Part shown: in pieces, positions 7,477 to 52,200 of the stretch | Numbering within the stretch: position 1 is the stretch's first letter | How the letters are laid out: every line of letters begins with the position of its first letter | From: Kappaphycus alvarezii | Taxonomy: Eukaryota > Rhodophyta > Florideophyceae > Gigartinales > Solieriaceae | Reading direction: 5' to 3' | DNA: 64,000 nt | Assembly: GCA_002205965.3 (NCBI GenBank) | Contig: NADL03000750.1 | Location: 620,001 to 684,000 of the forward strand | Position numbers and translations under genes: made by a program | Notes under the pieces: model-generated | Database searches by the model: none | Told to the model about the DNA's origin: nothing | What the model saw: the letters and a program-made list of their open reading frames with translations, nothing else

Positions 7477-8187
7477 TGATAGGGGTAAATCGGCGGGGAA
7501 GAGATCCTCAGAACCAATTACCCTGAGAAGGAAGTGTTGCGAGCGTCAAAAGTGCTACCGTGGTATTGTTGAACGAACAAAAGGGAGTGTATATAAAGAG
7601 AGTTGAGGAATCTACAAGCAAGTAAAAAGGGCAGGGTCTACCACCGACGCTCTGCGACTAGCGTAAGAAAAGTTTTCTTGGGTCTGAAGTTGACTCTCAA
7701 CTTCCTACTACTCGACTCTTGGCTTGAGTTGTCTGCCAACTTGCTTCACCTTCACTAAAGGAAGCAGTTTACTCGGCTCATATAGACTTTTGGCTACCCA
7801 AAAGTCTCAAACAAGCATACTAATAACCACAAAATGCATTCACGGTAATCGTGTGAACCAGAGAGACTATTAGGAGATATTTCCTCAAGGTAAATATCTA
7901 GGTGCCATACCCATGCCAGCCCCATCGGCCAGGGGTGGGAATTGATGTGGCCATATATAGACCTTTCAGAGCTACTTGTGGTATCACCCACAACCTGGAA
8001 CTGTACTGACATCTACTATGGCAGCGTGTCCTAAAATGAAAAAATCAACCGATGAATTTGCCACACTCACCCAAATTAAAAATATCTTGCAAATTCAAAA
8101 ACTATAAAAATATCTTCCCAATTCCGATACTGTATACATCATGGTCCTCATCTGGATTTTTTTTCGTGTGCGAATTTGCGCACATCA
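7477..8187 (-). repeat. Solo LTR, family A, with TSD CAGGG
   Basis: 711 bp from TGATAGGGG to GCGCACATCA, homologous along its whole length to the LTRs at 31420-32134 and 38233-38946. It is flanked directly by CAGGG at 7472-7476 and 8188-8192, a 5-bp target duplication as expected for gypsy integrase. It interrupts LINE L2 exactly between the QGDP and YADD boxes of reverse transcriptase. It arose from an integrated element by LTR-LTR recombination. Confidence 0.95.
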
Positions 8188-13057: not shown

Positions 13058-14324
13058 TCAGCACCGAAACACTACCAAATACTCCTTTTCGAACAATAAA
13101 ATGTTGAGCGATCCACCGTACTGGAAATATCCCAGTTTATCCCCTTCTTGATGTCAACGGGAGCGTCCCCTGGTTCAACGTAAGTGGACCTGTCGTTGAT
13201 TACAGATGGTCTTATTCTGCTGATTGTATTCAATCCCACTGGCACCACTGCCACATGGCCGTATCCATACGTCTCGATGATAAAGTACGCTCGATGAAAG
13301 TCTTCAAAAATACTAAAGTCGGTGTCCCCTTGGCCGATGTTGTCTCCCTTGTTGAACCAATGTTCTCCATCCATGATACCATTGTATATCCCCGGAACTT
13401 CGCCGGACTCAACGATTTTGCCATTCACAGGGCAGTGGTAGTGATGGTACACATTGGGCATAAGCACACAAGAAACTGCCGTACCACCAACAAAATGCTT
13501 CGCATATTTAGATTTGTTTAGGAGATCGTGCATGCTAATTTGGCGACCTTTGACGTTCATCTTCTCGTGTAAAGTAAGGTCAGCTAGAATGAAGTTTATG
13601 ATTGTGTCTGCAGTGGCGCAAACCAGATTATCATGCTGGGGTGATCAATCGGGCGCGGGTTCTTCGAGTAGTCGAGCTCTCGAGCGAAAAACTGGTTGAA
13701 TGATTTGAACCCATCAGCCGGAACAATGAAATCTTCAATCTGCGTGGAAGGATCTGCCATCCATTCTTCAATATGCTTTGTGGACTCTAAGGAGTCCATG
13801 AACTCTCCACGAATCATGATGAATTCCACTGTCCAGTTAAAAATTTCCCTTGAGTATTCCGGAGAAGAAAACGACTTGCTTTCAAAAGTATTGAGGAAGT
13901 AATATGCGGAGGGGTTGTTTAGATAGAACCATGTGAAAGGGAGGATCATCCCCAACCCACCAGTCGGTTGTTCGAGATCGGTAAACCAAACACGGAAATA
14001 GGTCTGCAGATCCAGGATGTTTGCAAACTGCCACTCATTGAGGTCACCAAAGTTGTTCGTCTTTTGAACATGGGCAATTGCCTCGTTGAATGCCGCTTCT
14101 ACGGTAGGATTGGAGCAAATAATTTGAAGCTTATCCATATGTCCTTCCATGACAGGATTGAGAGGGGCGCACATCCTGAGACGTTGGTGAATCTTCTCCT
14201 GAATCTCTGTTCTCATTGTTTGGGCTGACGAATGGTTCCTCGAATGGTAAAAATGAAGACTGTTTCTATGGTTTGTTATAACTGCTTGATTCAGATCTGG
14301 GATACTTTTCGTTCTGTAGAACAA
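13058..14324 (-). CDS. Phosphatidylserine decarboxylase-like enzyme (PSDC / PsiD-like architecture), two frameshifts
   Basis: First segment 13596-14324 (242 residues) has the N-terminal PSDC-type domain ending in the conserved GFKSFNQFFARE and RPIDHP. Second segment 13072-13560 continues through the decarboxylase domain (KYAKHFVGGTAV, VYHHYHCPVNGKIVESG, GHVAVVPVGLNTISRI). The frame breaks at the G-run 13638-13641 (plus strand) and at the C-run 13141-13144. One extra base in each run would join the segments and give a family-like C terminus around a GGS autocleavage site, ending at the stop at 13058-13060. Family role: pyruvoyl-dependent decarboxylation of phosphatidylserine or, in PsiD relatives, of aromatic amino acids; the substrate cannot be told here. 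It is the only clear metabolic gene in the window, flanked by a LINE relic on one side. Apart from the two indels it looks intact. Confidence 0.88.
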
Positions 14325-20299: not shown

Positions 20300-20642
20300 T
20301 TTGTTCGGACTTTAGGGGTAGCCAATACTCTATATAAGCTGGGTCAACTGCTTCCTCATGGATAAGTCAAGCAAGTTTGCAGACAATTTCAAGTCAAGTT
20401 CAGAGTAGTAGGAAGTTCAGAATCAACTCCAGACCCAAGAAACCTTTTTTCTACGCTGGTCGCAGAGCATCAGTGATAGGCCCTGCCCCTTCCATACTTG
20501 CTTGTAGCTCCCTCAACTCTCCTTCATATAAAGTCCTTTTTTCGTTCAACTATACCATGGTACCACTTTTATCGCTAGCAACACCTCCTTCTTGGGGTAG
20601 TTGGTTCTGAGTATCTCTCTTTCTGACGATTTACCCCTACCA
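20300..20642 (+). repeat. Old partial LTR of family A, opposite orientation
   Basis: It runs from GTAGCCAATACTCTATATAAGC to ACGATTTACCCCTACCA and is the diverged reverse-complement form of about half of the family A LTR (compare 47940-48269). The TATATAA box region and the CTGCTTCCT, GAGTAGTAGGAAGTT and CTACGCTGGTCGCAGAG blocks are kept. The outer part has been lost or has diverged. Confidence 0.82.
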
Positions 20643-22889: not shown

Positions 22890-24064
22890 CGGAAAATTAA
22901 TCAAGCCAGAAGCTCTCTGTCATTTACAGTGTAGTCCGACTCAGTTGGTGAAAGCTTCTTTGAATAGACAGAAATTACAGGATCCATTCCATTCTCATCC
23001 AACTGTGTTAGAGTTCCACCGCCAGCAAGCCGTGAATCATCTAATTGACAACGAAATGGGTTTTTAAAATTAGTAGCGACTAATATTGGAGCCAATATCA
23101 TCACTTCCTTTATCTCAAAAGCTTTATCACACTGTTGATCTCATTTCCCTGTACTCGACCTTTCTTTGTCAGATATATGAAAGTTGCAGCAATTGCAGAG
23201 AACTTCGGAATGAACCTACGAAAAACTGTATTAGACCTAAGAAACTTCTTAACTCCGTTAGAGATTCAGGTTTCACCAAGTTTATAGGACTTCGTCCTTC
23301 TCAAAATTGACACGAATGCCGTCCTTCCGATATTAAACCCAAAAAATCCAGCTCAGTCTGAGAGAAAGAGATTTCTTCGGAGAGATGTACAGCTTTGATC
23401 CTTAAGTCTCTTTAATACAATTTCAGATGTTCGTATGTTATTCCTCATTCTTACTGAATGTAAGAAGATCATCCATATAGAAACCAAGAAGACATCGATG
23501 CAATCATAGAATCTGGTTCATCAAAGTTTGGAACGTAGCAGGAGCGTTGCAAAGTCCATTGGCATAACAAGATATTCAAATTGCCCATACTTTGTATTGA
23601 ACCAGTCTTTCGATGTCCTCCGGTTTCACCTTATCTGATGGAATCCCGTTTTCAGATCAAACTTGGAAAAAATCTCGCATCTCCAAGTCGATCGAACATT
23701 TCATCAGAACGAGGGAGTGGAGCATTATTCTTTTTGGTGATGCGATTCAAAGCGCGATAATCGACAACACTCTAAGTTTTCCATCCTTTTCTTTCACAAA
23801 GAAGATGGTGCTCATATGCGTTTTACTGGACCTGATCTTCCTTTCCTCAAAGAAACTCGACGTACTCTTTTGCTGCCCTAAGTTCGGATGGAGACAACTG
23901 GAATAAAGGTCGATGAGGTGCCTTTGCTCTTCCTCCACTTTGATCTCATGATCAACTGATCGAATCGGAGAAGCCCTCTGGCAATTCATCCTGAAAGACC
24001 TCTTTAAATTATCCAGTAATCTGCTCAGTCTTCCACCGAACTTTGAATCTGTCACTCCTCTCAT
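22890..24064 (-). pseudogene. Reverse transcriptase and RNase H of element D
   Basis: 23747-24064 carries FFEERKIRSSKTHMSTIFFVKEKDGKLRV, the start of gypsy RT (LLEKGIIRPS...FVKKKDG pattern). Later frames between 23.3 and 23.7 kb are heavily broken. 22901-23104 carries LDDSRLAGGGTLTQ and ISVYSKKLSPTESDYTVNDREL, the RNase H block of gypsy pol. Confidence 0.78.
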
Positions 24065-26439: not shown

Positions 26440-27318
26440 GATTAGCGACATTGACGCGGCAATAAGCAGGCATTTTAATCTCCATGTCAAGCCAGCAGAG
26501 TCAAATTGTGTAGATGAGTGCATGTCAAAAAGGTATGGAATTGGCGGTAAATGGATTCAGAAAGGACTTACACACCATTTCGGTCTTTGCAGGAAGCCTG
26601 AGATGGGTCTGAGCTTCGGACTGCTACGTGTGGAGAAAGTGGAATAATTATCAACATCAAGAACTGTAAGTCGTCAGAACACACTGAAAGCTCAAATACA
26701 GAATGTTTGCAGGAAAAGAGAAAATTTACAGCTTAAGGAACCATGGTTTGGTTAGATAGGATTGTGTGTGGTGATTCTTTCTTTTACTCCGTTCAGACCG
26801 CAGAAGTCTCGCCGGAGAAGGGCTTAAGTTTCACTGGGGTTGTCAAGAATTCCAGTCGTCAGTTTCCGATGGCGTACCTTTCTGGTCAAGAAGTTGCAGA
26901 CCGGGGTCAGCACATGGAAATGAAAAATACTACAAATGGCAATAATTTAATTGCAGCTGTCATGTGGGTTGATCGAGAGAGAAGATACTTCGTCAGTACG
27001 TGTGGAACAACGAATGCTAGTACTTCAGTTTATCGCGAGCGATGTAGATCTGTTGCAGGACGAGCACAACTTGTCAGTTCTGAAATAGATATTCTGAAGG
27101 TTCTTGAGAAGTATTACCATACCTGTGCTCAGGTTGACCGCCACAAACGCTGTAGTCAGGACGAACTGAGTCTGGAAACAAAGCTCAAGATAGAGGAGTG
27201 GTCAATGCTCGTCAACACAACATTGCTGGCAATCTGCTGTGTGGATACTTGGAACCTAGACAAAGGGGGTCGTGGATATCATGAACAATGTACCCAAATG
27301 AATTCTACTGCAAATTAG
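26440..27318 (+). pseudogene. piggyBac-like transposase relic (DDE_Tnp_1_7 type)
   Basis: The upstream frame (about 26490-26600) reads CVDECMSKRYGIGGKWIQKG, the first catalytic-Asp block of the type seen in protist and early-fungal piggyBac proteins (CVDESMSxWxG). After a frameshift near 26620 and an in-frame stop near 26737, ORF 26743-27318 (191 codons) reads DRIVCGDSFFYSVQTAEV (second Asp), GLSFTGVVKNSSRQFPMAYL, AVMWVDRERRYFVSTCG, YYHTCAQVDRHKRCSQDEL (third Asp, VDRHNR-like) and LKIEEWSMLVNTTLLAICCVD. The N-terminal part was not found. No terminal repeats or TTAA duplications were established. Confidence 0.75.
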
Positions 27319-30415: not shown

Positions 30416-31419
30416 AACTTCCTCCTATAGCTCTCACGGACCGAGCCTGGGACAAGTGTGCTCCCCATGCACCTCGGAGGCCAGGGCTTCGAAAGCATCG
30501 CCTCGTGCCTCCACGGCGCTGCCGCGCCAGCATCATTGATGCTGCGCCCGCACGGCAGCGAACTTCCGCATACGCCACGCCGCGTGCTTGTGCACTAGCT
30601 TGTGGCCGCTACCGCGGCGGACCGGTCCTTCCTCCTCCGTCAGGCTGGGCCTCTCTCCGCCGTTTCGCCCCTCCATCCCCGGAAATAGTCGACCTTTCCA
30701 CCCTTGACCCTCCAACTCTAGCTGCTTCACCCACCAACACACTAACCCTTCTCAAACGGGTGCAGCAAGAGGCGCGGGCAAGAGTACATTGGCACGACGA
30801 CTCCTGGGAGAATGCCCCAAACCCGACCGCCCATAGCGACGCCGACATTCGACATCGCATCCGTGGCCTAGCGTTCGCCGCAGCCCCCGCTGCGGCGTTT
30901 CTCTTCGCTCATCCCACGGCAGCTACGAAGGTGCACACTACACACTGGCAGATCATGCTCCGCCGTCACCTCGGACTGCCAGTGTATGATGACTCCATGG
31001 CCCTCAACTGCCACCACTGTGACCACCCCTTGGACACCTCGGGGATCACGCCGCCGACCTCTGCTGCCCTGGTTTCGGCCGTCGTCACCGCACAACTCGC
31101 TATGTAATGCGATTGCGACGCACGTTACCCGCGCCGCGGGTCTGGATACTCGGCAAGATGTTCCGTTCCTCGTCCGGGCACTGAGCTCCGCCCGCCGATA
31201 TCCTTGTACAACCACCACCAACCCCGGAAGGACAACGTTGCGCCCCATTGCCTGTGACATCACCGTCGTTTCACCGTTCAAGGCCGCAGTTCGCACCAAG
31301 GCGACCCAGGCTGCCGGAGGCGCTGCTGAACTGGCGGCCCGCGACAAGGTTACAACCCTGGAACGCAACATCGCCCGACGACTCCCCGCTCCATCGACTG
31401 GCCCATCTTCTGCGCCTTA
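30416..31419 (+). pseudogene. REL-type LINE copy L7, part 1 (5' truncated; split by gypsy A2)
   Basis: It begins in the middle of the LINE ORF (ATAGCTCTCACGGACCGAGC; compare 40182). ORF 30505-31107 reads LPPPSGWASLRRFAPPSPEIVDLSTLDP, ARARVHWHDDSWENAPNPTA and LNCHHCDHPLDTSG (zinc cluster). Another frame gives LRPIACDITVVSPF-type endonuclease sequence and DKVTTLERNIARRLPAPSTGP. At 31415-31419 it is cut by element A2 and resumes at 38947 with the same 5 bases. Several frameshifts. Confidence 0.85.
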
Positions 31420-32134
31420 TGATAGGGGTAAATCGGCGGGGGAAGAGATCCTCAGAACCAATTACCCTGAGAAGGAGGTGTTGCGAGCGACAAAAGTGCT
31501 GCCGTGGTATTGTTGAACGAACAAAAGGGAGTGTATATAGAAGAGAGTTGAGGAAGCTACAAGCAAGTATAAAAGGGGCAGGGTCTACCACCGACGCTCT
31601 GCGACTAGCGTAAGAAAAAGTTTTCTTGGGTCTGAAGTTGACTCTCAACTTCCTACTACTCGGGACTTGGCTTGAAGTTGTCTGCCAACTTGCTTCACCT
31701 CCACTAAAGGAAGCAGTTTACTCGGCTTATATAGACTTTTGGCTACCCCAAAAGTCTCCAAACATACTAATAACCATAAAATGTATTCACGGTAATCGTG
31801 TGAACCAGAGAGACTATTAGAAGATATTTCCTCAAGGTAAATATCTAGGTGCCATACCCATGCCAGCCACCATCGGCCAGGGGTGGGAATTGATGTGGCC
31901 ATTATATAGACCTTTCAGAGCTACTTGTAGTATCACCCACAACCTGGAACTGTACTGACATCTACTATGACAGCGTGTCCTAAAATGAAAAAAATCAACC
32001 GACGAATTTGCCACACTCACCCAAATTAAAAATATCTTGCAAATTCAAAAACTGTAAAAATATCTTCCCAATTCCGATACTGTATACAATCATGGTCCTC
32101 ATCTAGATTTTTTCGTGCGAATTTGCGCACATCA
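31420..32134 (-). repeat. 3' LTR of A2
   Basis: 715 bp, TGATAGGGGTAAATCGGCGG to TTTGCGCACATCA (plus strand). Adjacent internal bases 32135-32146 read AGCGAGAGGGCG on the minus strand, a short polypurine tract. The TATATAA near 31728-31734 is the likely promoter box (reads as TTATATA on the minus strand). Confidence 0.96.
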
Positions 32135-32167
32135 CGCCCTCTCGCTCAAGACGAACGTCCCGACTCG

Positions 32168-33232
32168 TCACTGCTCTTCTTCTGCTTCCGTTAGTGTTCG
32201 CTGTCTTATTGATAAAATGTATGGTCTCTCAAACGGGTACGGATGCAACTGATTACCAATATGATGCTCTAAAAAGTAGGTTCGCATTACTGGTACCTCA
32301 CTTTGTAGCATAGCCTCATATATTGGTTTGATCACATCGAGGTGGGGTTGAATACATTCTTCTTCCGTGACTCTTCCGAATCTTCCAAGAGTGAAAAAAT
32401 ATATGTGATATGCAAACTCTTCTGGAAGATGCCGGAGGAATGGATGTCGATAAGAAAAGAAGACGCGCATCATCAAGAACGAATCTTCGTAAGATAAGTG
32501 CGGTCCATGTAGCGCCCTAAAACATAAACAGATGCTTATCATGAAATAAGAAATGACCTGCGCATCGTTCGCATCCTCGGAGATATTGCGCAGCCAAAAA
32601 GATAATCTTCTTCTTCCGACTGTATGCTGTGCATGGTTGTGAAGGAGAGCTAGAGATGAAGTTGTGGTGGACGGTCCCGATGAATGGCCGCGACCAGCTC
32701 CTGACGTACTGGGACCTGCACGAGGTCCTCTCGGGGGACGACCGGAACCTCTTCTGGGCGGGTTGTTGTCTCCTGAAGGTCCTCCTCTGGTCATCATCAC
32801 TGCTTCAGGAGGATCCTCGCCGCCTCCAACGTTCCCAATTTGTGGCGGAGAAACGTAAGGTTCCCATAGAGGATACGGGACCAGCCTGTATTCCATATCC
32901 GGGGGTAAGGCGTAACCTCTCAGTCGCACGTCTTGGTTGTTCTTGAGAAATACGTAAATTGGACGGATAATATTCAGATACGTTTGCGACAAGTCTCCAG
33001 CAGCTACCATTCCATATCTTCCTATAGAGTAATGATATATTACCTCCACAAACTCTGGACCTGCTTCCGTGAACCTTCCGTTTTGGAATGAAAATAGAAC
33101 TCTTATTAATAGTCGGAAATCTTCTTCAGGTAGCAATGGTCCGTTCAACGTACGAAAACATAGGCATATATTAATGTAGAAATGGATGATTACGTGGAGT
33201 TCGTAGTAGTCCCGCGTAACGAGATGATCCAT
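32168..33232 (-). CDS. Extra ORF of element A2: two-repeat protein of unknown function
   Basis: 354 residues, uninterrupted, between integrase and the 3' LTR. Residues 14-127 and 226-339 are copies of one domain that align without gaps at an offset of 212: ICLCFR.L.GP.L..ED, then GR.G.V, PIY and PYP..PY are shared, with 17 of 29 identical between 21-49 and 233-261. The linker (about 130-195) is rich in Gly, Pro, Arg and Ser (PRRGSGRPPRGPRAGPSTSG). No signal peptide, membrane segment, zinc knuckle or chromodomain is visible, so it is not an obvious envelope. Its ATG (33232) overlaps the end of the integrase frame (stop at 33190) by about 40 nt in the -1 frame, so expression could be by reinitiation or frameshift. 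Intact while the rest of the element is frame-broken. I do not recognise the family. Confidence 0.85.
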   Translation of the reverse strand: MDHLVTRDYYELHVIIHFYINICLCFRTLNGPLLPEEDFRLLIRVLFSFQNGRFTEAGPEFVEVIYHYSIGRYGMVAAGDLSQTYLNIIRPIYVFLKNNQDVRLRGYALPPDMEYRLVPYPLWEPYVSPPQIGNVGGGEDPPEAVMMTRGGPSGDNNPPRRGSGRPPRGPRAGPSTSGAGRGHSSGPSTTTSSLALLHNHAQHTVGRRRLSFWLRNISEDANDAQVISYFMISICLCFRALHGPHLSYEDSFLMMRVFFSYRHPFLRHLPEEFAYHIYFFTLGRFGRVTEEECIQPHLDVIKPIYEAMLQSEVPVMRTYFLEHHIGNQLHPYPFERPYILSIRQRTLTEAEEEQ

Positions 33233-34295
33233 TCCCAGGCCCTTTTTCCTCCCATAGGAATCATTCTATAGTTAAAGATGAGTATGCCCCGTGGTTGCGC
33301 ATAGTCCTGTGTGAGAAGGAATTCTTCAGGCCTCTGATGGTAAGGGACCAGACGACGTGCATGGATGGCCCTCCTTGATCTCTTCCCTGAGCTTGAACAG
33401 AGCTGATAGTGCGGGTGTCTTTCCTCCGTGACGATGCAAGGGTTCGAGTACTTGGTTTGGAAGGCCGGCCACTTCACAGCCTGCTGCATTGCTTTTCCAT
33501 GTACTACAAGTACTTTAGAGCCAACTGAAAAGGTTCTGACTGCAGGTTCTGCATCCTTATTTCTTGTCTGTGTTAGCGCGCGGTGTGATCTCCAGCCTTC
33601 GGTGGCCAGTAGTTCAACTTCCCTACTCTCTTCATCGATAATATTTGTTTCCATGTCTCTCTGTAACATTCTAGGAGCCCTTCCGTACATTAGCTCGAAT
33701 GGTGAGCGTCCATTTCTTCCTCTTCTTCGACGGTAGCCGTATAACACTTTTGGTAAGGCATCTTCCCACTGGATTTCATTCTCCAACATAGTTTTCGATA
33801 TTGCTCGTTTGATGGTTCCAACCATCCTCTCCGCTTTCCCGTTGGACATAGGAGCGTATGCGAGAACGGTCTTCAGCTGAATCCCTTTCTCTTCCAAAAA
33901 ACGAAGCAGTGAAGTTGCAGTAAAACAAAGGGCGTTATCCGAGATGATCCTTTTTGGAAGACCAAACGGTTCAATTATTTCTTTTTCGATGAATCTCAGT
34001 ACCACCTCAGCATTTGCCTCCTCACTGCAACTGCTATTGGCCATCCAGTAAGATGTTCCACCCCTATAAGGAGATATTTGTTTCCGGAAGAAGTTTCCTT
34101 GAACGGGCCCGCGAAGTCAATTGAGAAGGTTTCAAAGAGACCGGAAACTGGAAAACTTAGAGTTGTCTTATACTTCCGTATTGGAGTGAATTTTTGGCAG
34201 TTGTCGCAGCTTTTCACGAAGTTATAGACGTCCTTATGGATACCGGGCCACCAGAATCTCTCAGTTACGAATTTTTGGTTGTTTCGAGATCCCAA
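33190..34295 (-). CDS. Integrase of A2
   Basis: Two overlapping frames. 33996-34295 has RFWWPGIHKDVYNFVKSCDN (zinc HHCC region, CDNCQK) and FSIDFAGPFKET (first Asp). 33190-34044 has IISDNALCFTA (second Asp) and APMSNGKAERMVGTIKRA (Glu), then a C-terminal region with VGSKVLVVHGK and IHARRLVPYHQRPEEF. A frameshift near 34020 separates them. The catalytic D-D-E residues are all present. No chromodomain follows. Role: insertion of element cDNA. Confidence 0.9.
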
Positions 34296-34353
34296 TGCCC
34301 TAGCTCATCATGGAAAGTCCTCAAGATCTTCATTCTTTCTTTCAAAGGGGCCA

Positions 34354-34746
34354 CTAGTCGGGGACCGGCTTTAGTGTGCCGGAAAGTTTCCCATTCCACA
34401 ATGTAAAAGCCTTTTGATTCCTGCGTACCCAATTTCGGTGTTCAAGATCAACCTTTCTCATTTCTAGTCCATCGAGGAATTTGATCAGTCCGTGAATATT
34501 AGCTTCGTACTCGTTATCGTTCGGCAACTGCAACTCGGCGACTCCGACGATGTCCTCCGAAGCTTTTTCATTTGGAATCAGTGCGTCCCTCAAGCGGGAT
34601 AGGTAATCGGCAGGCTGATTATTGCGTCCGGGTCTATACACAATTTCAAACCGATATTCTGCGAAAATGTCGAGCCATCGGGCCAAGCGGTGATGTACAT
34701 CCTTCTTTTGGAATGCTGTTTTAAGTGCCTGGTGATCAGTTATCAA
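34354..34746 (-). CDS. RNase H C-terminal part and connector of A2
   Basis: 130 codons starting in the RNase H region: ITDHQALKTAFQKKDVHHRL, then RWLDIFAEYRFEIVYRPGRN and NQPADYLSRL, the hallmark end of gypsy RNase H. It follows the RT ORF after a frameshift near 34810-34830 (the RT frame is lost just after FASRTLNE). Confidence 0.88.
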   Translation of the reverse strand: MITDHQALKTAFQKKDVHHRLARWLDIFAEYRFEIVYRPGRNNQPADYLSRLRDALIPNEKASEDIVGVAELQLPNDNEYEANIHGLIKFLDGLEMRKVDLEHRNWVRRNQKAFTLWNGKLSGTLKPVPD

Positions 34747-34805
34747 GACAAATTTCTCGAGTGATAAAAGGTATACGCGAAACTTTTTCAGCGCGAAGAC
34801 GACAG

Positions 34806-36182
34806 CTAGCGCTTCTTTCTCGCAGACTGAGTATCTCTTTTCCGCTCATTCAGAGTTCGGCTTGCGAATTGAACAGGGTGTAGTCTTCCGTTTTCATCTT
34901 TTTGGGACAAAACGGCACCCAAAGACCGTTCTGAGGCATCTGTCTCCACAACGAATGGTCTCTTGAAATCTGGGTACATGAGAACTGGGGGGACACATAG
35001 CTTATCTTTAAGCTCCTGAAATGCAGTTTCCATTTCCTTGTTCCAGTAAAATTTTCCGTTCTTCGTAGTGCTGGCATGTAACGGTGCTGCAGTCTTGGCG
35101 AAATCTTTGATAAATCTTCTGTAATATGAGGCCAGTCCTAAGAAGCTTCGGACCTCCGTCTTTGAAGCGGGCCTTGGTGCCAACTTTATTTTTTTCGTTT
35201 TCTCTGGATCCACTCTAATTCCCTCTTGGTCGACGATATGACCGAGTAATTGGATAGAAGTTTTCGCAAAGAAGCATTTGCTCAACTTAATTTTCAAGCT
35301 ATACTCCGATATCCTCTCCACAACTGTCTTGACGTGCGAGATGTGCTGATCCAATGTTTCTGAGAATATGACGACATCATCGATATAGACTCTTGCGAAT
35401 GGAAGTCCTTTCAAAACCTCGTTCATCATTCTTTGGAATGTAGCTGGTGCATTCATGAGACCAAAAGGCATCACTTCGAACCTGAACGTACCGGCTTTGC
35501 TGGTAAAGGTTGTTTTTTCCTTACATTTTTCATCCAATGGAATCTGCCAATAGCCAGTGTAAAGGTCAATTGAGGTGAAATATCTCCCGTCCTTCAGGTC
35601 CTCGAGGATCTCCTCCATGTTCGGAATCGGAAATCGATCGGGTATCATTCTCTGGTTCAGTTGTCGGTAATCGACGCAAAAACGCAGCTTTCCATCCTTC
35701 TTTGGTGCGACCACAACTGGAAACGACCATGGGGATGAAACTGGTCGAATAATATCATTTTTCAGCATACTTGTAACATTTTCTGAGATAAATTGGTCAT
35801 ATTTTGGCGGTTGACGTCTAGGCTTGTGGTAAATCGGTTGAGTGTCGGTAAGTTCGAACGAGTGAGTAACCGGTACACTTGCTTGTCTTAAATCTGAAAC
35901 GCTCCATGCAATTACTTCGGAAGATGTTAACATGTCGGATATTTTCAGTGAGGCGGGGGCGGGAAGGTGCTGCACTTTTCCTTGGATTTCTGCCATTTGG
36001 CGCCCTTTTTCTTCTTGATCCTCAACCTCAATATTTTGAAGGACCTCTTCCGTCGTGCTCACATCTTCATATATGGAATTCGACGTATTCTTATTTTCTT
36101 TGCAAAGGTAATCTTCTTTCATGCTCCGAATTCTGTCCTTTGATTCGATATCATCGCAAAAAGAAACACATTCGGGTTTCAA
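34806..36182 (-). CDS. Reverse transcriptase and RNase H N-terminal part of A2
   Basis: 458 codons. The N-terminal linker is acidic. RT motifs are complete: KPRRQPPKYDQFISE, SPWSFPVVVAPKKDGKLRFC, VDYRQLNQ, YFTSIDLYTGYWQIPL, MPFGLMNAPATFQRMM, and the catalytic VYIDDVVIF (YxDD) near residue 268. The thumb ends in LGLASYYRRFIKDFA. RNase H begins with VVETDASERSLGAVLSQ and FASRTLNE, then the frame is lost. Role: copying element RNA into DNA. Confidence 0.95.
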   Translation of the reverse strand: MKPECVSFCDDIESKDRIRSMKEDYLCKENKNTSNSIYEDVSTTEEVLQNIEVEDQEEKGRQMAEIQGKVQHLPAPASLKISDMLTSSEVIAWSVSDLRQASVPVTHSFELTDTQPIYHKPRRQPPKYDQFISENVTSMLKNDIIRPVSSPWSFPVVVAPKKDGKLRFCVDYRQLNQRMIPDRFPIPNMEEILEDLKDGRYFTSIDLYTGYWQIPLDEKCKEKTTFTSKAGTFRFEVMPFGLMNAPATFQRMMNEVLKGLPFARVYIDDVVIFSETLDQHISHVKTVVERISEYSLKIKLSKCFFAKTSIQLLGHIVDQEGIRVDPEKTKKIKLAPRPASKTEVRSFLGLASYYRRFIKDFAKTAAPLHASTTKNGKFYWNKEMETAFQELKDKLCVPPVLMYPDFKRPFVVETDASERSLGAVLSQKDENGRLHPVQFASRTLNERKRDTQSARKKR

Positions 36183-36249
36183 ACTTATCCTAGAATCCAG
36201 TCGTCATCTGTTTCAAACCCGGAATCATAATCGTCCCATGCCATGTTCA

Positions 36250-37600
36250 TTACCCCCGAGGGTACCCTTTTCCACTTCCGAAAGTGTTAGTTGGTTCCGA
36301 ATCTTCGCTGTCATAGCTAGAAGTGAAATCTTCACTGTCCGTTTCTTTTAAATCTTCAGGATGCGTGCTTTTGTCGAAATCCAGGGGCATCTTCACGGTT
36401 CTGCCGTCAATATTAACTGAAACCATTTGGTTGCCCAAGTCAATGCATGTTCCTAGTCTTTCCATTGTGGGCAGCCAATGATTGCATCGAAAGGGAGATC
36501 CGGCATGACAAGAAAGTCTACATCAACTTTAGAGTCCCCAAAGAACACGGAAACCTTGTCAACAGTGCCCATGCATTTTGAGACGGTTCACACGAGTATA
36601 CGGAATGTCCATCCGCTACAGTTATTTTTCGAGTCGTTGGAGTAATTTCGAGACCTAGATCTGTCACCAAAGTTTCTGAAATGAGGTTTGGAACAGCACC
36701 CGAATCGAAGAGAGCTTGGGTTTTCATACCCAATACTTTGACTGGTACCAGCTTAAGACGTCTTGGTGCTGTCGAGGCCGATTGAAGAAACAGTTTCTTA
36801 CCCTTAGCGGACTTATTAGACCTGATAATTTTTTTGAGTTCTTTTCTCGCATCCTCTGCGTCGCCCCTCAAAAGTTGACCAAACGTTATCCCAGTTGGGG
36901 CCGATGCAAGCTCAGCCACCAAATTGTACCTCTTCACATACTCTAGTACGTCCTTAGAGATACTCTTAACTTTCTTACTCTTTTTCGTCTTCTTGGCCGG
37001 AGTGACTCCCACTCCTGGAACAACTTGATCAGACCTCTTGGTTCGAGGAGGTACAGGTGCTGGGATATGCTCCAGCATTCCATACTCTAGCCTAGGTTTC
37101 TTCGATAAAATGTTCCCTTCCCCATCCCTTTTTGTCACATTGACTTGACTAATCTCTTCAGCGATGGATACGTTACCGGCATCCGTCAACCTTTGATCCC
37201 TTCTATTTTGTAAGATTTTCACCTCTGGTCCTGACTCACTCCTTGCTTCCGATAAATTTGCTCTTCTGTTGTCTTTAGACCAGCAGTTACTTTCATGATG
37301 CCCATATCGACCGCACTTTGCACAACGAGTGTTTCTATGTGGATTATCAGGACACCTGTTTGCAAAGTGTCCAGGCTTGTGACAGTAAGAACAGACTTCT
37401 GCGGCCTTAGGGGCCCCAGACTGGTTCTTCTTAATGGTAAGAGTAAGGCTTTCCAACTGCGAGGTTATCATGTCAAGTCGATTATCGAATCGGGTTTCCA
37501 ACCTTTCTTCCAAGTTTTTGACATCGCTCCTGACAGATTCTAATGCCGCTGCACTAGTAGCCGGCCTTTGATAATTCTTTTCAGGATGTACGATAGACAT
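36250..37600 (-). CDS. Gag zinc knuckles and protease of A2, broken by a 20-bp insertion
   Basis: 36518-37600 has the same two CCHC knuckles and ALFDSGA protease site as copy A1. At 36590-36609 a 20-bp segment (ACACGAGTATACGGAATGTC) that is absent in A1 shifts the frame right after ITVADG, inside the protease. 36250-36465 continues the linker to pol (VSVNIDGRTVKMPLDFDKS, then an acidic Ser-rich stretch). Without the insertion gag-protease would match A1. Confidence 0.88.
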
Positions 37601-37680
37601 CGATGTGCGGGTTTCCCTCGGTACCTCACTCAGTGACTGAAACGTCTCCGAATTTTTGACAAATTCTACTATGGTACCCT

Positions 37681-38144
37681 TCAGTTCATCAAAAGTGTGA
37701 GGGCCCTTGATGAGGAGGAAATCGGAGAGCCGCTTATCCCCATAGCCGCCTTACGCAGCATTCCGTACTTGGCTTGGGCGTTGAACCCAGCCTTTTCATA
37801 AAGATCACACAAGTACACCAATGAGCTTAACAAATCGTCGAAGTTGAGCCGGGCCTCTATGGCGGTACGAATCATCTCATCTGGTTCTACCTCCTTAGCA
37901 TACTCTTTCACAAGCCACTCACATACCTCACCGAAGTTACGCCCATTCCCGTTAAGAGACCACCCGTCGATAAACTTGGACTTATATTTGTGCTTTGCGT
38001 CACCATGAAGATAGGCGAAGATACTTGCGGCCTTCTCTTCATCGCCCTTCTCTCGCATCACAACGTTGACATATGTGTAAAGAAACTCCTCAACGTCTTC
38101 AGTCTTGCCCCTGTGAACGTTATACGAGCAGCGTTGAGATCCAT
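37681..38144 (-). CDS. Gag N-terminal part of A2, frameshifted
   Basis: Same protein as 1231-1695 in A1. The natural ATG is at 38144 (MDLNAAR), but a C-run at 38107-38110 has one base fewer than A1 and breaks the frame after about 10 codons; the ORF 37681-38379 therefore enters from LTR-side sequence in another frame. A second one-base difference near 37737 (CCCC against CCCCC) shifts the end. Conversely, the run at 37719 keeps the base missing in A1. Confidence 0.82.
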
Positions 38145-38232
38145 GATTACAGAAAAGAAATCCCCCGAAGTGTTCCTTACTACTGCTCAACTCGAATACC
38201 TCGGGTGCAACCCCCTCCACAAGAGTACCAAA

Positions 38233-38946
38233 TGATAGGGGTAAATCGGCGGGGAAGAGATCCTCAGAACCAATTACCCTGAGAAGGAGGTGTTGCGAGC
38301 GACAAAAGTGCTGCCGTGGTATTGTTGAACGAACAAAAGGGAGTGTATATAGAAGAGAGTTGAGGAAAGCTACAAGCAAGTATAAAAGGGGCAGGGTCTA
38401 CCACGACGCTCTGCGACCAGCGTAAGAAAAGTTTTTGGGTCTGAAGTTGACTCTCAACTTCCTACTACTCGGGACTTGGCTTGAAGTTGTCTGCCAACTG
38501 CTTCACCTCCATAAAGGAAGCAGTTTACTCGGCTTATATAGACTTTTGGCTACCCCAAAAGTCTCAAACAAACATACTAATAACCATAAAATGTATTCAC
38601 GGTAATCGTGTGAACCAGAGAGACTATTAGAAGATATTTCCTCAAGGTAAATATCTAGGTGCCATACCCATGCCAGCCACCATCGGCCAGGGGTGGGAAT
38701 TGATGTGGCCATTATATAGACCTTTCAGAGCTACTTGTCGTATCACCCACAACCTGGAACTGTACTGACATCTACTATGACAGCGTGTCCTAAAATGAAA
38801 AAATCAACCGACGAATTTGCCACACTCACCCAAATTAAAAATATCTTGCAAATTCAAAAACTGTAAAAATATCTTCCCAATTCCGATACTGTATACAATC
38901 ATGGTCCTCATCTAGATTTTTTTCGTGCGCGAATTTGCGCACATCA
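38233..38946 (-). repeat. 5' LTR of A2
   Basis: 714 bp, homologous end to end with 31420-32134. Just inside it (38232 downwards, minus strand) the sequence TTTGGTACTCTTGTGGAGGG starts with a TGG and sits where the primer binding site should be; I cannot name the primer tRNA. Confidence 0.96.
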
Positions 38947-39246
38947 CCTTACACGCCGAACTTCACGTTTCGACCTCTGGCGTTTGATTCCCTAGGTGCC
39001 CCTTCCCCTGGAACTATTGCATTTATCGAGGAGTTAGTTCCGCGGATCGCGTCCAAGTGTCACTCGACAGTTGGCATTGTCCGCCGCCGTATCTACCAGC
39101 GACTGAGTTGCACCCTGTGGTCCTCCATCGCTGAAGCTATCCTGTCGCGAGCACCGATGCGCACGGACGACGAAGTACATCCGGTTAGATCTTAACCGTA
39201 TAGTTAGGACGTGCGCAGTCACAGTAGATACTGAACGCATTAAACT
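38947..39246 (+). pseudogene. REL-type LINE copy L7, part 2 (3' end)
   Basis: It continues L7 after the A2 insertion: TPNFTFRPLAFDSLGAPSPG, FIEELVPRIASK and RRRIYQRLSCTLWSSI, then the 3' tail ending ATTAAACTTC. The junction with 31419 is confirmed by the uninterrupted copy L8 at 41160-41190. Confidence 0.88.
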
Positions 39247-39249
39247 TCT

Positions 39250-41475
39250 TCCTTCCTTCCTTGCCCGATCGCCATCGGGGCTGTGCTTCGTAGGATAGTG
39301 ACGAAGGCACTGCTCCCCGCCTTAATAGCCGATTCACACTCGGTTCTGTCGCCGCATCAGACGACCAATGGTGTTAAAGCGGGTTGGACTCTATTGTCCA
39401 CGACACCCGCACGACACTACGCCGCTTCTCCGCCACCCGAACGTCGCCCAAGGTCCTCATAGACGCAAACAACGTCTTTAAACGCGTTGATCGGCAGACT
39501 GTGCTGGACCACCTACCAATGCTCGCCCCCTCGCTAGCCCGCTTCGCAAACATAATCTATGGCCGAATGCAACCGCCATTGCTTGTCCCGAACAGGGATC
39601 GCACCGTCATATCAAGTGCCCAGGGCACCCATCAGGGTGACCCGGCCAGCATTTTGTTGTTCTCGCTAACGATTCAACCCCTCATCCGTCGGGTTGCTGA
39701 GATCCCCAACATTGCTCTCTGCTAATGGTACGCCGATGACGGCACGATCGTCGGGAACCTAGGCGCCATCCGTCAGACGCTCCGTCTCCTTGCCCGAGAT
39801 GGTCCAACGGTTGGGTTCCACGTCAGCCAACGAAAGACACGCATACGTTGGCCTCACGTCATGCCGCCGGATCGAGCAGCCCTCTTAGCGGAATTCCCTC
39901 TTGCAGAATGCCCGCGGGACGGCTTTCCGCTTCTAGGGGCCCCCATTGGGAAAAAACGTTCACGGAGAGTTTTCTCCGGTCTAAGATTGCTCAGTGCCGC
40001 CGTACCCTGGACTGCCTCCTGCTGGTCCGCGACGCCCGCGCCCGGTTCCACATGCCCCGGATCTGTGCCTCTGCATGCCTTCTATCGCATGCCTTCAAGC
40101 TCCCAGATCCGCGCTTAGCAGAGTCCGCCGCAGAAGAATTTGATGATCTACAACGGTCATCATATGAAAAGTTACAGGGCATAGCTCTCACGGACCGAGC
40201 CTGGGACCAAGTGTGCCTCCCCATGCACTTCGGAGGTTAGGGCGTCGAAAGCATCGCCTCGTGCCTCCACGGCGCTGCCGCCGCCAGCATCATTGATGCT
40301 GCGCCCGCACGGCAGCGAACTTCCGCATATGGCACGCCGCGTGCTTGTGCACTAGCTTGTGGCCGCTATCGCGGCGGCCGGTCCTTCCTCCTCCGTCAGG
40401 CTGGGCCTTCTCTCCGCCGTTTCGCCCTCTCCATCCCCGGAATAGTCGACCTTTCCACCCTTGACCCTCCAACTCTAGCTGCTTCACCCATCAACACACT
40501 AACCCTTCTCAAACGGGTGCAGCAAGAGGCGCGGGCAAGAGTACATTGGCACGATGGCTCCTGGGAGAATGCCTCAAACCCGACCGCCCATAGCGACGCC
40601 GACATTCGACATTGCATCCGTGGCTTAGCGTTCCGCCGCAGCTCCGCTGCGGCGTTTCTCTTCGCTCACCCCACGACAGCTACGAAGGTGCACACTACAC
40701 ACTGGCAGACCATGCTACGCCGTCACCTCGGACTGCCAGTGTATGATGGCTCCATTGCCCTCAACTGCCACCACTATTGCCACCCCTTGGACACCCTCGG
40801 GGTCACGCCGCCGACCTCTGCTGCTCTGGTTTCGGCCGACGTCACCGCCACAACTCGCTATGTAATGCGATTGCGACGCACGTTACTTGCGCTGCGGGTC
40901 TGGATACTCGGCAAGATGTTCCGTTCCTCGTCCCGGGCACTGAGCTCCGTCCCGCCGATATCCTTGTACAACCACCACCAACCCCGGAAGGCACAACGTT
41001 GCGCCCCATTGCCTGTGACATCACCGTCGTTTCACCGTTCAACCGCAGTTCTCGCACCAAAGCGACCCAGGTTGCCGGAGGCGCTGCTGAACTGGCGGCC
41101 CGTGACAAGGTTACAACCCTGGAACGCAACATCGCCCGACGCCTCCCAGCTCCATCGACTGGCCCATCTTTTCGCCTTACACGCCGAACTTCACGTTTCG
41201 ACCTCTGACGTTTGATTCCCTAGGTGCACCTTCCCCTGGAAATATTGCATTTATCGAGGAGCTAGTTCCGCGGATGGCGTCCAAGTATCACTAGACAGTC
41301 GGCGTTGTCCGCCGGCGTATCTACCAGCGACTGAGTTGCACCCTCTGGTCCTCCATCGCTAAAGCTATCCTGTCGCGAGCACAGATGCGCACGGACGACG
41401 AAGTACATACGGTTAGATCCTAACCGTATAGTTAGGACGTGCGCAGTCCACAGTACATACTGAACGCATTAAACT
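39250..41475 (+). pseudogene. REL-type LINE copy L8 (5' truncated, most informative plus-strand copy)
   Basis: 39384-39725 reads KVLIDANNVFKRVDRQTVLDH and SAQGTHQGDPASILLFSLTI, the RT palm motifs, then a stop codon immediately before WYADDGTIVGN (39726). 39848-40240 has PLLGAPIGKKRSRRV, CASACLLSHAF and ALTDRAWDQVCLPMHFGG. 40517-41215 has ARARVHWHDGSWENASNPTA and the zinc cluster LNCHHYCHPLDTLG; another frame has RPADILVQPPPTPEG then LRPIACDITVVSPF (PD and DxTV endonuclease core) and DKVTTLERNIARRLPAPS. The tail runs to ATTAAACTGC at 41475. It joins L7's 3' end directly. Confidence 0.9.
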
Positions 41476-41696
41476 GCTTCCCCTTAAACTTCTTCCCATT
41501 CTTGGCATTTTCAAAAACCAGCTTGCTGGAGGCTTCGCATCGTGGGTAGTTAGCCCAAGAACCATCTAGGAGACTCTCTGGTACTTCAAATGTTACAGAA
41601 ATCGTGTACACGTATCACCACGTGTACACTTGTAAAGTCGTAAACTTCTCTCAGATATCAGGACTAACACTGTTACTGCCTTTGTGACCTAATCCC

Positions 41697-42741: not shown

Positions 42742-44830
42742 GTGTCAACCATAAGATCGAATGCAACGTTCATTGAAACATTCTCCCCTGCATTCGAGAG
42801 AAATCACAAGGGTCTTCTCATTGTCACGGGTACAATTACTGGTGGACCAGCAAAAATCCTCATAGAGCCTGGTGGTGAGATCAACTTCTTGAGTGAATCA
42901 TTTTGCAGAAACATCAAATATAGACCCGAGATTCCAGAGAGCTTGCTGAAATTGCCAACGATGCGGACCAGATACTTCAAGAATTGGTAAATGCTGTTAG
43001 TGTACATATTAACGCCTATACTGAAACTTTGTACTTTGCGATAAGCCCATTGAAGCGTTATGATGCAATTCTTGGGAAAGAATGGTGCGCCTTGCATGAG
43101 GCAAAAATCAATTGCCTTAATAATGAGGTGAAATTCAAGCATAAGGGAAATATATTCGTATTTATTGGCTGATGATGCCGTAGTGAGTCCTTTTGTATTT
43201 TTCAATACAATAGTTAGTGATTTAGATGAGAAAAAGAGTTATTTTGTAGTTTTACTTAGACCGTTACACTCTAATGAAGCAAGAGCACCACTATACCCTC
43301 GAGACATACAGAAGCGTTTAAAAACATTTGCTGATGTTTTACAGAGAAGCCCCCAAGAGATTTGCCACCGAGAAGGAAACAAGACTTTGAAATAGAATTA
43401 AAGGAAGGAGCAGAACAACATAAGAAAGGTCTCTATAGACTTTTTGACACAGAAATGTCAGAACTCCGAAAACAGTTGGACGAACTACTAGAAGCTGAGT
43501 TTATAAGACCTAGTAAGAGCCCTTGGGGAGCTCCTACTCTATTCGTGAGCAAAAAAGGATGATATTATACGAATGAGTGTGGATTAAAGAGCCTTAAACC
43601 GGCTTACTGTAAAAAACAGCTATCCCTTACCACGAGTGACGACATTTTCGACCAGCTTAAAGGAGAAAAGTTCTTCAGCAAAATTGATCTTGATCGGTTA
43701 TCACCAGATTAGACTACACGAAGATTCGATTCTATTTACCGCTTCAGAACACGATACGGGCACTTTGAATTTCTTGTTCTGCCGTTTGGACTCACTAATG
43801 CCCCAGCAACTTTCATGAACCTAATGAATCATATTTTCAAGGATCAGCTCGACTTATTTGTGATTTCTATCTGGATGATATTTTCATCTACATAAGACAT
43901 GGAAGGATCATTGGATCATATTCAAACTGTACTCGAAATCCTCAGAAAAGAAATGTTATTTGGCAAATTATCTAAATGTGTTTTTGGAGTTACAGAAGTG
44001 GAGTACCTAGGCAAATCATTCTAAACGGTATTTCTTTGATCCAAATAAGAGAAGTGCAGTCATGGAATGGCCGATACCAAAGAATAAGCAACAAATATAG
44101 TCTTCTCTTGGTTTTGTCAATTATTACCGGAAGTTCATAAAAGGCTGTTCAATTCTTGCAAAACCTCTCACATAATTGACGAAAAACGTGAATTTCCAAT
44201 GGAGCTACACTCAAGATGATGCCTTCAAATTACTCAAGCAAACACTTTGTATCGCACCGGTTCTCAGAAATTTCGACGTCACACTGCCTATCTCCGTAAC
44301 CACAGATGCATTACAGTATGCAATGGTGCAGTGCTGAAAGAAAGAATTTGGTTCTAAAAGGCCGGTATCGTTTGCGTCCAGGACTCTTAATGATGGCAGA
44401 ACAAAACTACTCGGCCCACGAAAGGGAACTTTCGGCAAATGCAGATTCTCTCAGTGGTGGAGATCATACCTTTATGGTATTCATTTACCATTCACTCGGA
44501 TCACTATCCCCTAAGATATCTAGAAACTCAAGAAACCTGTCCCCGAGACAAGTGAGATGGCTGGAAAGATTAGTTAATTTCGACTTCAAGATGATCCCCA
44601 TCTCAGTAAAATCAAATGTAGTGGCGGACGCACTATCGAGGCAACCACAATATGTGCCGTCACCTGATCACCGAAACAATTCATTACTCCAAGAAGTTAT
44701 TACCAAGAAAACCTCAGAATCCAATAGGATTTCGACCACATCATTCACGATCACTGAGTTAGTGGGGTTGGCAGAAGAATATGGTAGGACGAGAACCTCA
44801 GAACCCATTATCAAGATCCTAAAGCTCCTT
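42742..44830 (+). pseudogene. Protease, reverse transcriptase and RNase H, element C
   Basis: 42742-42990: LIVTGTITGGPAKILIEPGG, a retropepsin whose active-site DSG has become EPG. 43362-43562: EGAEQHKKGLYRLFDTEMSE and FIRPSKSPWGAPTLFVSKK (RT start). 43570-43990: broken frames with SDDIFDQLKGEKFFSKIDL and YLDDIF-like sequence. 44306-44833: RNase H end with RWLERLVNFDFKMIPISVKS and VVADALSRQP. Numerous stops and shifts. Confidence 0.85.
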
Positions 44831-47519: not shown

Positions 47520-48269
47520 TGATTTGCGCAAAATTCGCACACAAAAAATCCAGAAGAGGACCAAATTTGGATACAGTATCGGAATTTGGAAGATAGTTTT
47601 ACAGTTTTTGATTTTGGAAGATATTTTTACAGTTTTTGAATTTGCAAGATAATTTAAATTTGGATGAGCGTGGCAAATTCATCGGCTGATTTCCTATACT
47701 AGGAAACGCTTTCATAATAGATGTCAGTACAGCTCCAGATTCTGGGTGATACTGCGAGACACCCTGAAAGGTCTATATAATGGTCACATTAATTCCCACC
47801 CCTGGCCGGTGGGTGGCTGGCATGGGTATGGCAACTAGATATTTACCTTGAGGAAATATCTTCTAATAGCCTCTCCGGTTCACAAGATTCCCGTGAATGT
47901 ATTTTATGGTTGTTAGTATGTTTGTTTGAGACTTTAGAGTAAGCCAAAAAGTCTATATAAGCCGAGTAAACTGCTTCCTTTTGTGGAGGTCAACCAAGTT
48001 GGCAGACAACTTCAAGTCAAATCCCAAGTAGTAGGAAGTTTTAGAGACAACTTCATACTCAAGAAATGTTTTTCCTACGCTAGTCACAGATCACCAGTGG
48101 TATACCCTGCCCGTTCCATACTTTCTTGTAGCTCTTTCAACTCTTTTCCATATACACTCCTTTTTGTTCGTTAAACTATACCACGGTAGCACTTTTGTCG
48201 CTTGCAACACCTTCTTCTTGGGTTATTTGGTTCTCAGTATCTCTTCTTCCTACGATTTACCCCTTATCA
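47520..48269 (+). repeat. Solo LTR of family A, inverted and diverged
   Basis: About 750 bp, TGATTTGCGCAAAATTCG to GATTTACCCCTTATCA, the reverse-complement orientation relative to 31420-32134. It has many substitutions and small indels, so it is old. Flanks are GCCCA (47515-47519) and ACCCA (48270-48274), consistent with a 5-bp target duplication with one change. Confidence 0.88.
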
Positions 48270-49269: not shown

Positions 49270-52200
49270 TTGATGGGAGAAGCCAATGCTGACGAGATCG
49301 TAAGGAGGAAACTTCTCGCACAATTGACAAAGAAAATGAACCCTAAGAGAAAGGTTAAAAAGGCCGCGACTGCGCAAATGGACCTCAGAGACATAGGAGT
49401 TCCTTTTTTGAGAGTAGACGCTCTAAACAGGAGAGTAAGCTTCAAGATGCGGCTTTATCTGGTCTTTTTGGCTAGATGGTGGCGGAACACCGGATTTTGC
49501 ACAGTTTGTCATGTATCAGGCGCTCAAGGACTACAAAGTACTGAAGAATAAAAGATTTCCAGGTTGAAACGAAAATTTTTCGTATGATCGTGAGGAGAAA
49601 GATATAGAGTCGATTGGGCTAAATAGGGCTTTAGAGTGACCTGATGCAAAAACTCCCAAATTTGAGCAGCTCCAAGATAAGCTGTATGCTATCGCAGGGC
49701 AGTTCGGGGAGCTGTTCGTATCCGTGGAAAGAAAATTTGAGAAGATTACTAAAGCAGTCAATTCCGACCAGTAATTCATTTGCAGGTACTGCGGAAAGAG
49801 GGAGCATTAGGCTTCTCCATATATTCAATAACAGCTAATGAATTCTCGTTGTATGACTTATGGGAAGTGAGTCCATTCAGAGGAGACATGCTTGAAGAAT
49901 ATAAGCATGGTGGGGACAGTCAGGTTGGAATCACTAGAGCAGGTGCTGAGTCTGAAAGGGGATTCCAGCTCAGACAGAATGCTTAAGAGGAGCCTTTGGC
50001 CTTACTACGAGACTAAAGGGGCGGTAAAGTCGTGACAGGAGGAAAAATTATTACTGAAGGCCGTTCTCTACCAGAAAAGAGAAGAGAAAAAACAATTGAC
50101 ATCGATTTCCTCACGGGAAAGACCCGACAGCTCATTCGCCGCTGGTTTTGTCGGTATCCAGCAGGAAGAAGGCCAACAATCACAACTCAAACATAACGTC
50201 GGCTGGTGTGAGAGACCACATTGAGACGTAAGACGCAGTTGTTGAGGTTACCTCGCCAAATTCAGGGATTAATTTTAGTCATCTTCTTTGGGGCGCGCGC
50301 ATAATGCTAGAAAGCACCTCAAGAGGCTGGTTGCATGTAAAATGACGGTAAAAAAGGACTACGAGGCTATACCTTTGAGATAATCTTCTCCAGTTGGATG
50401 TTCTTACTACGAGGGCGTATGGGACTGGGACCCACGCCTTATTAGATACGGTTGCTGTCCGAAACCCCTTGTAGTGGTAATTCTGTGAGACACTGGCGTT
50501 AGCTCCGACGGAAACAATCATCAGGTGACTGTGGCAGATGGGACGGTTGTAGAAGACGTTGGTTGCGTCGAATTTGTTCCGGTTTCTTGTGGATCATTAG
50601 CTATTGCTTTGGAATTTCTGATGGTGCACAATGCTCGATGCAATTATCGTCTGTCCGACTCTGGAATACCTGCAGGCAAATCTCATTTATATATTTCAGC
50701 AGGTCACCTTGGTGTTTGGGCAAAATAAGGTGCGTTTATCGTTACTTGGCAAACACCTTGTGATCCATAAGAAACAACGTGATAGTGAGGATTTAATTTC
50801 CCTCTGGGAGTCCGAAAGCTATCAGTTTTGGTATCCTTCTTAGAATTTGGTGGTAGTGGCAACGGATTGGAAAAAGAACAAAAATTAATTCGAACTATCC
50901 TGAAAACCCGGATTTAAGGAATGCAAAGGGTCAAAATCAACTGGAGAAGACGAAGAGGCAGACAGAACCGTTCTGATTGCCTCAAAAGTTGAGCATCTGG
51001 ATGAGCGGGACTGCAGAGAATGGTTGAAGGCACTTAAGGACATATGGTTTGGGGTATGTAGGTTGTTTAATAGGCTATCCTCCTGGTGGTCCATTTACTT
51101 GAGTTGATGGAAGACACACAGATACACCGAAAGGCTAGCAGTATGCCCCCCAAGCACAATGAATTCGTGAAGAACGAGTTTAAAGAGCTTTTGGATGTGT
51201 ATCGCCACTCCTGCGAGATCACCCTGGTCGCTTCAGGTCTTGATATATACGAAGAAGGATGGAATGACCCTGTCTTGTTCTGTTTTGAAAACAACCAACC
51301 AACAGGGTGATGAAGCCAGATACATGGCTTCTTTCTAAGATTGAAGAGCTTGTTGATGAACTGAAGGGCGCTAAGATCTCCACTACTCTACAAATCTACA
51401 CCGGTTATTGACAGGTTCGTATGTTTGGAGCTTGCAAGGACAAGAAATATTCATTTACAGGTAAGTATAATAACTTATAATTTGGAGTGCTTTCATTTGG
51501 ATTAATGAGAGAGCCAGCCACTTTTCAATGACTGATGGACGACGTCCTCCGCGATCTACCTTTCTCGACAGTTTATGGCGACGAAGTCGTGATATTCTCG
51601 CATTCTGGAAGGTCATATCAAGAACTGTGAGGAAATTTTCAGTAGGGGTAAAGAGGCCAACTTGGAGTCAAAGGTGACCAGGTGTTAGTTTCGCTCTAGC
51701 TGAAGTCAAAATGCTCCTAAACTTGGTGAACGAAGCAGGTTTAAAATTATTCAAAGAGAATATCTAGGAAGTCCTGTAAGACACGGCTCCGAAGAATTCA
51801 ACTGAACCAAGAAGTTTTCTCAGACTGGCTGGCTACTGCAGGATGTTAAAAAGTAATTTCGCTGAGATTTTTGGGTTTTTTATATGACAGTTTCCGTGAA
51901 TAAGGCAATAGAGTGGGCTCCAAAAAATACAGATGGCATTCGAGGAAGTAAAACAGAGGCGGATTTCACCTCCGTTCCGGCAATTTCGGACTTTTACTCC
52001 CAGTTCATGATGAAGACCGATATTTCCGCTTTCAAGAATGGAGTGGTGCTCCCGCAAAAGAAGCGTTGACGGTAAGCTCTACCTCATTCAATTCGCCTCG
52101 CGCACTATGTCGGAACGGGAACGCTGCTACTCGACGAGTAAATGGGAGGCGTTTGCTGATTTGTTCGCTCTCAAAAAACTCCAGGTGTCCCTGTTGTCAG

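Follow-up and report, generated by a model that had tools for sequence, protein, structure and literature searches.

The window analysed here, a stretch of 64,000 nt, contains a Ty3/Gypsy element whose features all lie on the minus strand (−). It is bounded by a 5′ LTR at 38232–38947 (−) and a 3′ LTR at 31419–32135 (−), which match each other at 97.7%. Gag with CCHC knuckles and an aspartic protease are found at 36518–38397 (−) in frames that are broken in this copy (assigned from the open reading frames and a Pfam match to Asp_protease_2, E 2.2e-5; the zinc-knuckle models gave only weak matches in the gag region). Reverse transcriptase (RT) and RNase H follow in two frames at 34354–36203 (−) (Pfam RVT_1, E 1.2e-35; RT_RNaseH_2, E 1.2e-24; RT_RNaseH, E 1e-19). 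The integrase also occupies two frames, at 33190–34304 (−) (Integrase_H2C2, E 6.6e-11; rve, E 3.4e-6, which is under the curated cut-off of that family). The element thus has the paired LTRs and short target-site duplication of the Ty3/Gypsy group as well as its Pol order of protease, RT, RNase H and integrase. The target-site duplication is 5 bp long and was seen by eye in nine of the 14 copies with both ends, including the window copy. The insertion looks young, for across 709 aligned columns the two LTRs differ by 2 mismatches, besides 11 gap runs.

The element was inserted within a repeat (30427–31419 and 38944–39252), a second copy of which, ∼94% identical, lies at 40181–41481; the open frame in this repeat has no Pfam match. 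The 3′ flank of another copy (L044) matches the same repeat, near the same place. In two copies (L003 and L028) the start of the internal region (window 38231 downward) stands directly after the 3′ LTR, as in tandem elements that share an LTR. The same LTR family occurs elsewhere in the window at 1–2056, 7477–8188, 20300–20642 and 47520–48269, comprising LTRs at 81 to 95% identity and a further copy that the window edge truncates, leaving its 5′ part. Distantly similar RTs are present at 22934–23765, 43464–44424 and 51201–52124, with no match there to the ORF protein described below. The window also holds a direct duplication of ∼2.5 kb (57412–59924 and 61494–64000, 99.3% identical) containing a 504-aa frame (57439–58953) with no Pfam match up to E 0.1, a phosphatidylserine decarboxylase domain at 13072–13644 (−) (E 7.2e-21) that likely belongs to a host gene, and a DDE_Tnp_1_7 transposase remnant at 26737–27318 (+) (E 1.5e-7).

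Between the integrase and the 3′ LTR we find a 354-residue open frame (33232–32168, −), at the place reported in a first-pass annotation of this DNA and closed by a stop codon at 32168–32170 (−). When the ORF is aligned with itself, the best ungapped segment pairs residues 5–127 with residues 217–339 (45 of 123 identical, score 219). The scores of 1000 shuffles had a mean of 30.5 and a maximum of 48. Over residues 14–127, where the annotation had seen an ungapped duplication, 44 of 114 positions are identical. The duplication within the ORF is therefore beyond doubt. The first domain (residues 5–127) spans 32852–33220 (−), as defined by the ORF and the self-alignment. It is followed by a linker at 32654–32851 (−) (residues 128–193), delimited by its composition and by an ungapped alignment to P0002, a relative from outside this genome. 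As the annotation had noted, the linker is rich in Gly, Pro, Arg and Ser; together with Thr these residues make up 74% of it. The second domain, residues 194–354 with the repeat proper at 217–339, is found at 32171–32653 (−) and was defined from the ORF, the self-alignment and the relatives. Net charge is −3 and −4 in the two domains, both of them acidic, and +3 in the basic linker. We refer to the two domains and the linker as the extension.

The annotation had taken this frame for an extra accessory ORF in the position of an env gene. Other copies of the element contradict that view. We searched the genome from which the window comes (336 Mb, 884 contigs) with the ORF and scored the best 115 of 5611 candidates, that is, the copies most similar to it. 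By row count, the extension ends a longer open frame of 435–1373 aa in 105 of the 115. In the other 10, the window copy included, it is a separate frame of 364–365 aa. The match starts at residue 5, and not at the Met, in 107 of the 115. Of these 105 we fetched 20, picked for their long frames; given that choice, 105 of 115 is the figure to cite for the longer frame, and it applies to the copies most like the ORF. All 20 have the integrase tail motif RRLVPYH in the long frame, with 396 residues from the motif to the end of the frame, and five of them (L009–L013) have the RT in that frame as well. At none of the eight loci L001–L008 is the integrase tail in the same frame. A second set of 29 loci (L030–L058) was chosen by similarity to P0002, which spans the linker and the second domain, and partly overlaps the first set (L056 is L020). 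Here the integrase tail is in frame with the second-domain motifs at 16 loci. For the last 900 residues of L009 the best PDB match is the Ty3-G polyprotein (E 1.4e-33). This alignment passes through the integrase tail and ends shortly beyond it, and therefore marks the start of the extension. Env-bearing gypsy elements of the errantivirus type carry a separate ORF; here the long frame of every one of the 20 fetched copies takes in both the integrase tail and the extension.

If the frame is naturally a continuation of the integrase, the start of the first domain is to be expected before the ATG, within the integrase frame (34116–33190 in the window). Homology was indeed found there. The 22 residues before the ATG, read in the integrase frame (33220–33285, −), match, in register, the 22 that precede the second domain, with five identities and a score of 23 against −23.8 ± 10 in shuffles (p 5e-5), and we assign them to the start of the first domain. 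An hhalign comparison with the window integrase frame picks the same stretch, at a non-significant probability of only 0.3 per cent. The ATG consequently lies inside the coding region of the first domain and outside its natural frame.

We conclude that the extension is the C-terminal part of Pol, joined in frame to the integrase in most scored copies. It is nearly certain that Pol in this family consists of RT, RNase H and integrase followed by a C-terminal extension of ∼370 residues with two domains, and that the window copy is split at the junction. In most scored copies a single frame leads from the integrase through one domain (∼145 residues) and the linker (∼66 residues) to the second copy of that domain, and stops just short of the 3′ LTR. 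The frame of the window copy is broken where integrase and extension meet. This severs the extension, and a Met codon in the coding region of the first domain mimics a start. It is extremely improbable that the extension is a truly separate accessory ORF read from its own ATG and that the long-frame copies are secondary fusions: the split form makes up six of the first eight rows of the ORF search, with a protein identical to that of the window copy, and 10 of the 115 scored copies, but the remaining 105 are fused, homology to the second domain reaches beyond the ATG into the integrase frame, and at a diverged locus, L029, the integrase tail passes straight into the first domain, though the frames there are broken. 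On this frame continuity and upstream homology we set the separate ORF aside. The extension is a real, conserved feature that was misread as an extra ORF.

That the ORF is intact beside broken gag and pol frames had been taken as special. We do not find it so. Of the 29 loci picked with P0002, 13 keep all seven motifs sought, from the integrase tail to the end, in one frame, and in many copies of this set the extension is broken. The openness of the extension beside broken gag and pol is thus no sign of special selection. Among the best 150 of 4486 candidates, 22 rows share a frame of exactly 318 aa, shorter than the ORF, which suggests either a common break in the first domain of some copies or a recurrent assembly error. 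Compared with the window copy, we counted 106 frame-changing gaps and 75 substitutions in gag (19 copies), 125 and 46 in RT-RNase H (19 copies) and 64 and 51 in the integrase (27 copies). Since the window copy serves as reference, its breaks are counted again in each row, and 56 of the 125 RT gaps come from two decayed copies (L026 and L027). The extension had no frame-changing gap in 27 copies, a count that supports no conclusion since these copies were mostly chosen by the extension. Gap, substitution and flank comparisons omit L005, which is the window copy, and those of gaps and substitutions also leave out matches with less than 85% coverage of a region. Between 31 and 49% of the frame-changing gaps fall in runs of at least three identical bases, which make up 19% of the element; assembly error and indel-rich decay would both fit the gaps.

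L029 represents a diverged second family in the same genome, with the same order of integrase, first domain, linker and second domain. Compared with the window element, its integrase is 33–64% identical depending on the stretch, its first domain with the linker 48% and its second domain 58%; the copy is itself decayed. Against this one diverged and decayed copy, dN/dS (Nei–Gojobori) is ∼0.37 for the extension overall, with 0.31 in the second-domain block and 0.41 in the first domain plus linker. For the integrase it is 0.46 overall and 0.55, 0.25 and 0.37 by block. Mismatches to L029 in a 163-codon block number 39, 30 and 66 at the three codon positions. In close copies chosen by protein score, distinct changes were 6 nonsynonymous and 8 synonymous in the extension (27 copies), 4 and 7 in the integrase (27 copies) and 10 and 7 in the RT (19 copies). 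In the comparison with the single copy L029, the extension is thus under purifying selection of about the strength acting on the integrase. The earlier claim of a duplication preserved under selection is borne out by its presence in the second family and by the dN/dS of ∼0.37; a value near 1 had been named as speaking against it.

The two domains of the ORF share 37% identity, and between the second domain of L029 and the first of the ORF identity is 24%. Each ORF domain is closer to the corresponding domain of L029 than to its partner in the ORF, so the duplication probably predates the split of the two element families in this genome.

Relatives outside the genome were few, namely five fragments in 5.8 billion proteins, each from a single short contig (1 of 2106 candidates in one protein search and 5 of 229, the first one included, in another at E up to 1). 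P0002 and P0005 run from the last part of the first domain through the linker into the start of the second, and P0003 and P0004 extend to the C-terminal end. All five relatives retain parts of the same domain order. No longer protein carrying the extension was found among 2954 candidates, and no relative was confirmed in the viral and prokaryote contigs searched. That these fragments are the only relatives outside the genome, and that the extension matches no known domain, would suit a passenger without function. We consider this very improbable, as the extension has been kept in two families at 48–58% identity with a dN/dS of ∼0.37, and the 27 close copies, chosen by protein score, show 6 nonsynonymous against 8 synonymous changes.

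The ORF matched no Pfam family up to E 1, and the last 420 residues of the L009 Pol matched none up to E 10. A PHROGs search of the extension gave no match, and PDB sequence and profile searches gave nothing significant. These searches agree with the annotation, which had recognized no known domain or motif. AlphaFold models had a mean pLDDT of 39 with 3 alignment rows and 48 with 7 rows. The 7-row model contains helices only, which at this pLDDT gives only a hint that the domain may be all-helical. A fold search with the pLDDT 48 model against PDB and viral models returned no match at E ≤ 0.001, a result that says little at such confidence. We also considered an origin from the element's own gag or integrase and rejected it, the hhalign probabilities being 0.2 and 0.3 on a scale of 100; the stretch matched in the integrase frame belongs to the first extension domain.

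The best PDB profile match was the DNA-binding domain of Sap1, with E 0.17 (alignment A5) and 0.26 (alignment A6), and Sap1 was also on top for the ORF alone at E 1.7, all of these being non-significant. Sap1 may itself be linked to integration. The match could point to a pair of Myb/SANT-like domains that add DNA binding to the integrase. The three matching chains are one protein, however, each domain carries a net negative charge (−3 and −4), and Pfam gave no match, so we regard such a pair as quite improbable.

By analogy with known elements, the likeliest role of the extension is that of a tether borne by the integrase, which we propose tentatively and at somewhat less than even odds, because the extension is made as one protein with the integrase and is placed where chromodomains are. 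A two-headed binding module at the end of Pol would tether the integrase or the integration complex, and its partner would be a chromatin or nuclear protein of the host, or other integrase subunits, much as chromodomains serve chromoviruses. We lean towards a protein-binding domain over direct DNA binding or membrane association. No common insertion target was seen in 42 3′ flanks (41 and that of the window copy), and one repeated target was discarded as an explanation. Fifteen pairs among the 42 share some sequence, several of them being the same or duplicated loci. Since the flanks share no one target, a strict single-site preference is unlikely.

The element's protease could release the extension from Pol, and the freed protein might then have a structural or membrane-associated role of its own, such as helping to assemble particles or acting in an env-like way. 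Env genes occupy the position after the integrase in other elements, and the first helix of each domain is hydrophobic, with Kyte–Doolittle peaks as high as 2.15 and 2.11 in P0003 and P0004. However, the peaks are 1.28 and 1.44 in the window copy (19-residue window), borderline for a membrane helix, and they range from 0.42 to 2.15 over P0002–P0006 (1.32 in P0006 and 0.58 in P0002). The hydrophobic segment is inside a duplicated helical domain and may therefore be buried core, and most scored copies encode the extension as a continuation of the integrase frame. We find such a released protein unlikely. The ORF matched none of the Pfam envelope families.

For the Pol-tail anatomy and the integrase-tethering role taken as a whole we put the probability at roughly 0.5. 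A more specific form of the tether, which we hold to be doubtful, is a new kind of integrase tail in which two copies of an unrecognized domain on a flexible linker would grip a factor of the host chromatin or nuclear envelope at two places and thereby steer or anchor integration, doing the work of a chromodomain though folded differently.

What looked like an extra gene becomes a tail of Pol, and the case shows how reading one copy alone can let a single frame break pass for a new ORF. Should the tail indeed tether the integrase, it would have been invented independently, once more at the site where chromodomains were acquired, and it would become testable whether a two-headed module after the integrase can steer integration. 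This genome contains the family in many nearly identical copies, whose insertion pattern offers rich material.

Extra coding sequence after the integrase is known from several elements, which we compare here as they are described in excerpts of the respective papers. Chromodomains are binding modules at the C-terminal end of Pol, after the integrase, in the descriptions excerpted (PMC3248453; PMC5348765). The present extension has the same position but is ∼370 residues long, duplicated and without a chromodomain match; neither the ORF nor the L009 Pol tail matched any Pfam family at the cut-offs given above, which separates the element from the chromoviruses, where a chromodomain follows the integrase. 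The bdelloid LTR elements Juno, Vesta and TelKA carry a varied ORF3 between integrase and 3′ LTR (PMC5408684, in part), and they resemble the present family in having lineage-specific coding sequence at that place. The ORF3s, of env, GDSL, DEDDy, membrane or coiled-coil types, are separate ORFs according to the same excerpt, whereas our extension shares the Pol frame. In orchids, Ty3/Gypsy elements that carry an m6A demethylase domain (PMC9289625, in part) are likewise a gypsy lineage that has fixed an additional protein domain, in their case a known enzyme domain and here an unrecognized, duplicated one.

The nearest parallel in arrangement is Gypsy_Ds1 from the ostracod Darwinula stevensoni, for which the excerpt describes a fused, atypical extension of 250 aa beyond the integrase without detectable sequence homologs (PMC7998251). 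In this family, too, a Gypsy pol carries a fused extra domain after the integrase. For Gypsy_Ds1, HHpred pointed to the trimeric coiled coil of viral spike proteins (PMC7998251, same excerpt), whereas here, comparing by description, there are two copies of a domain and a Gly/Pro/Arg/Ser-rich linker. A literature search in general terms, with subscription journals mostly outside its coverage, found no description of a duplicated post-integrase domain of this kind. The annotation's statement that no gypsy accessory protein like this one had been described accordingly holds for the domain itself, which is apparently undescribed, but not for the arrangement, which is known from chromodomains and, as far as the excerpt goes, from Gypsy_Ds1 (PMC7998251). 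Fused extensions after the integrase are thus an established theme among these elements, to which the present family adds its own particular domain.
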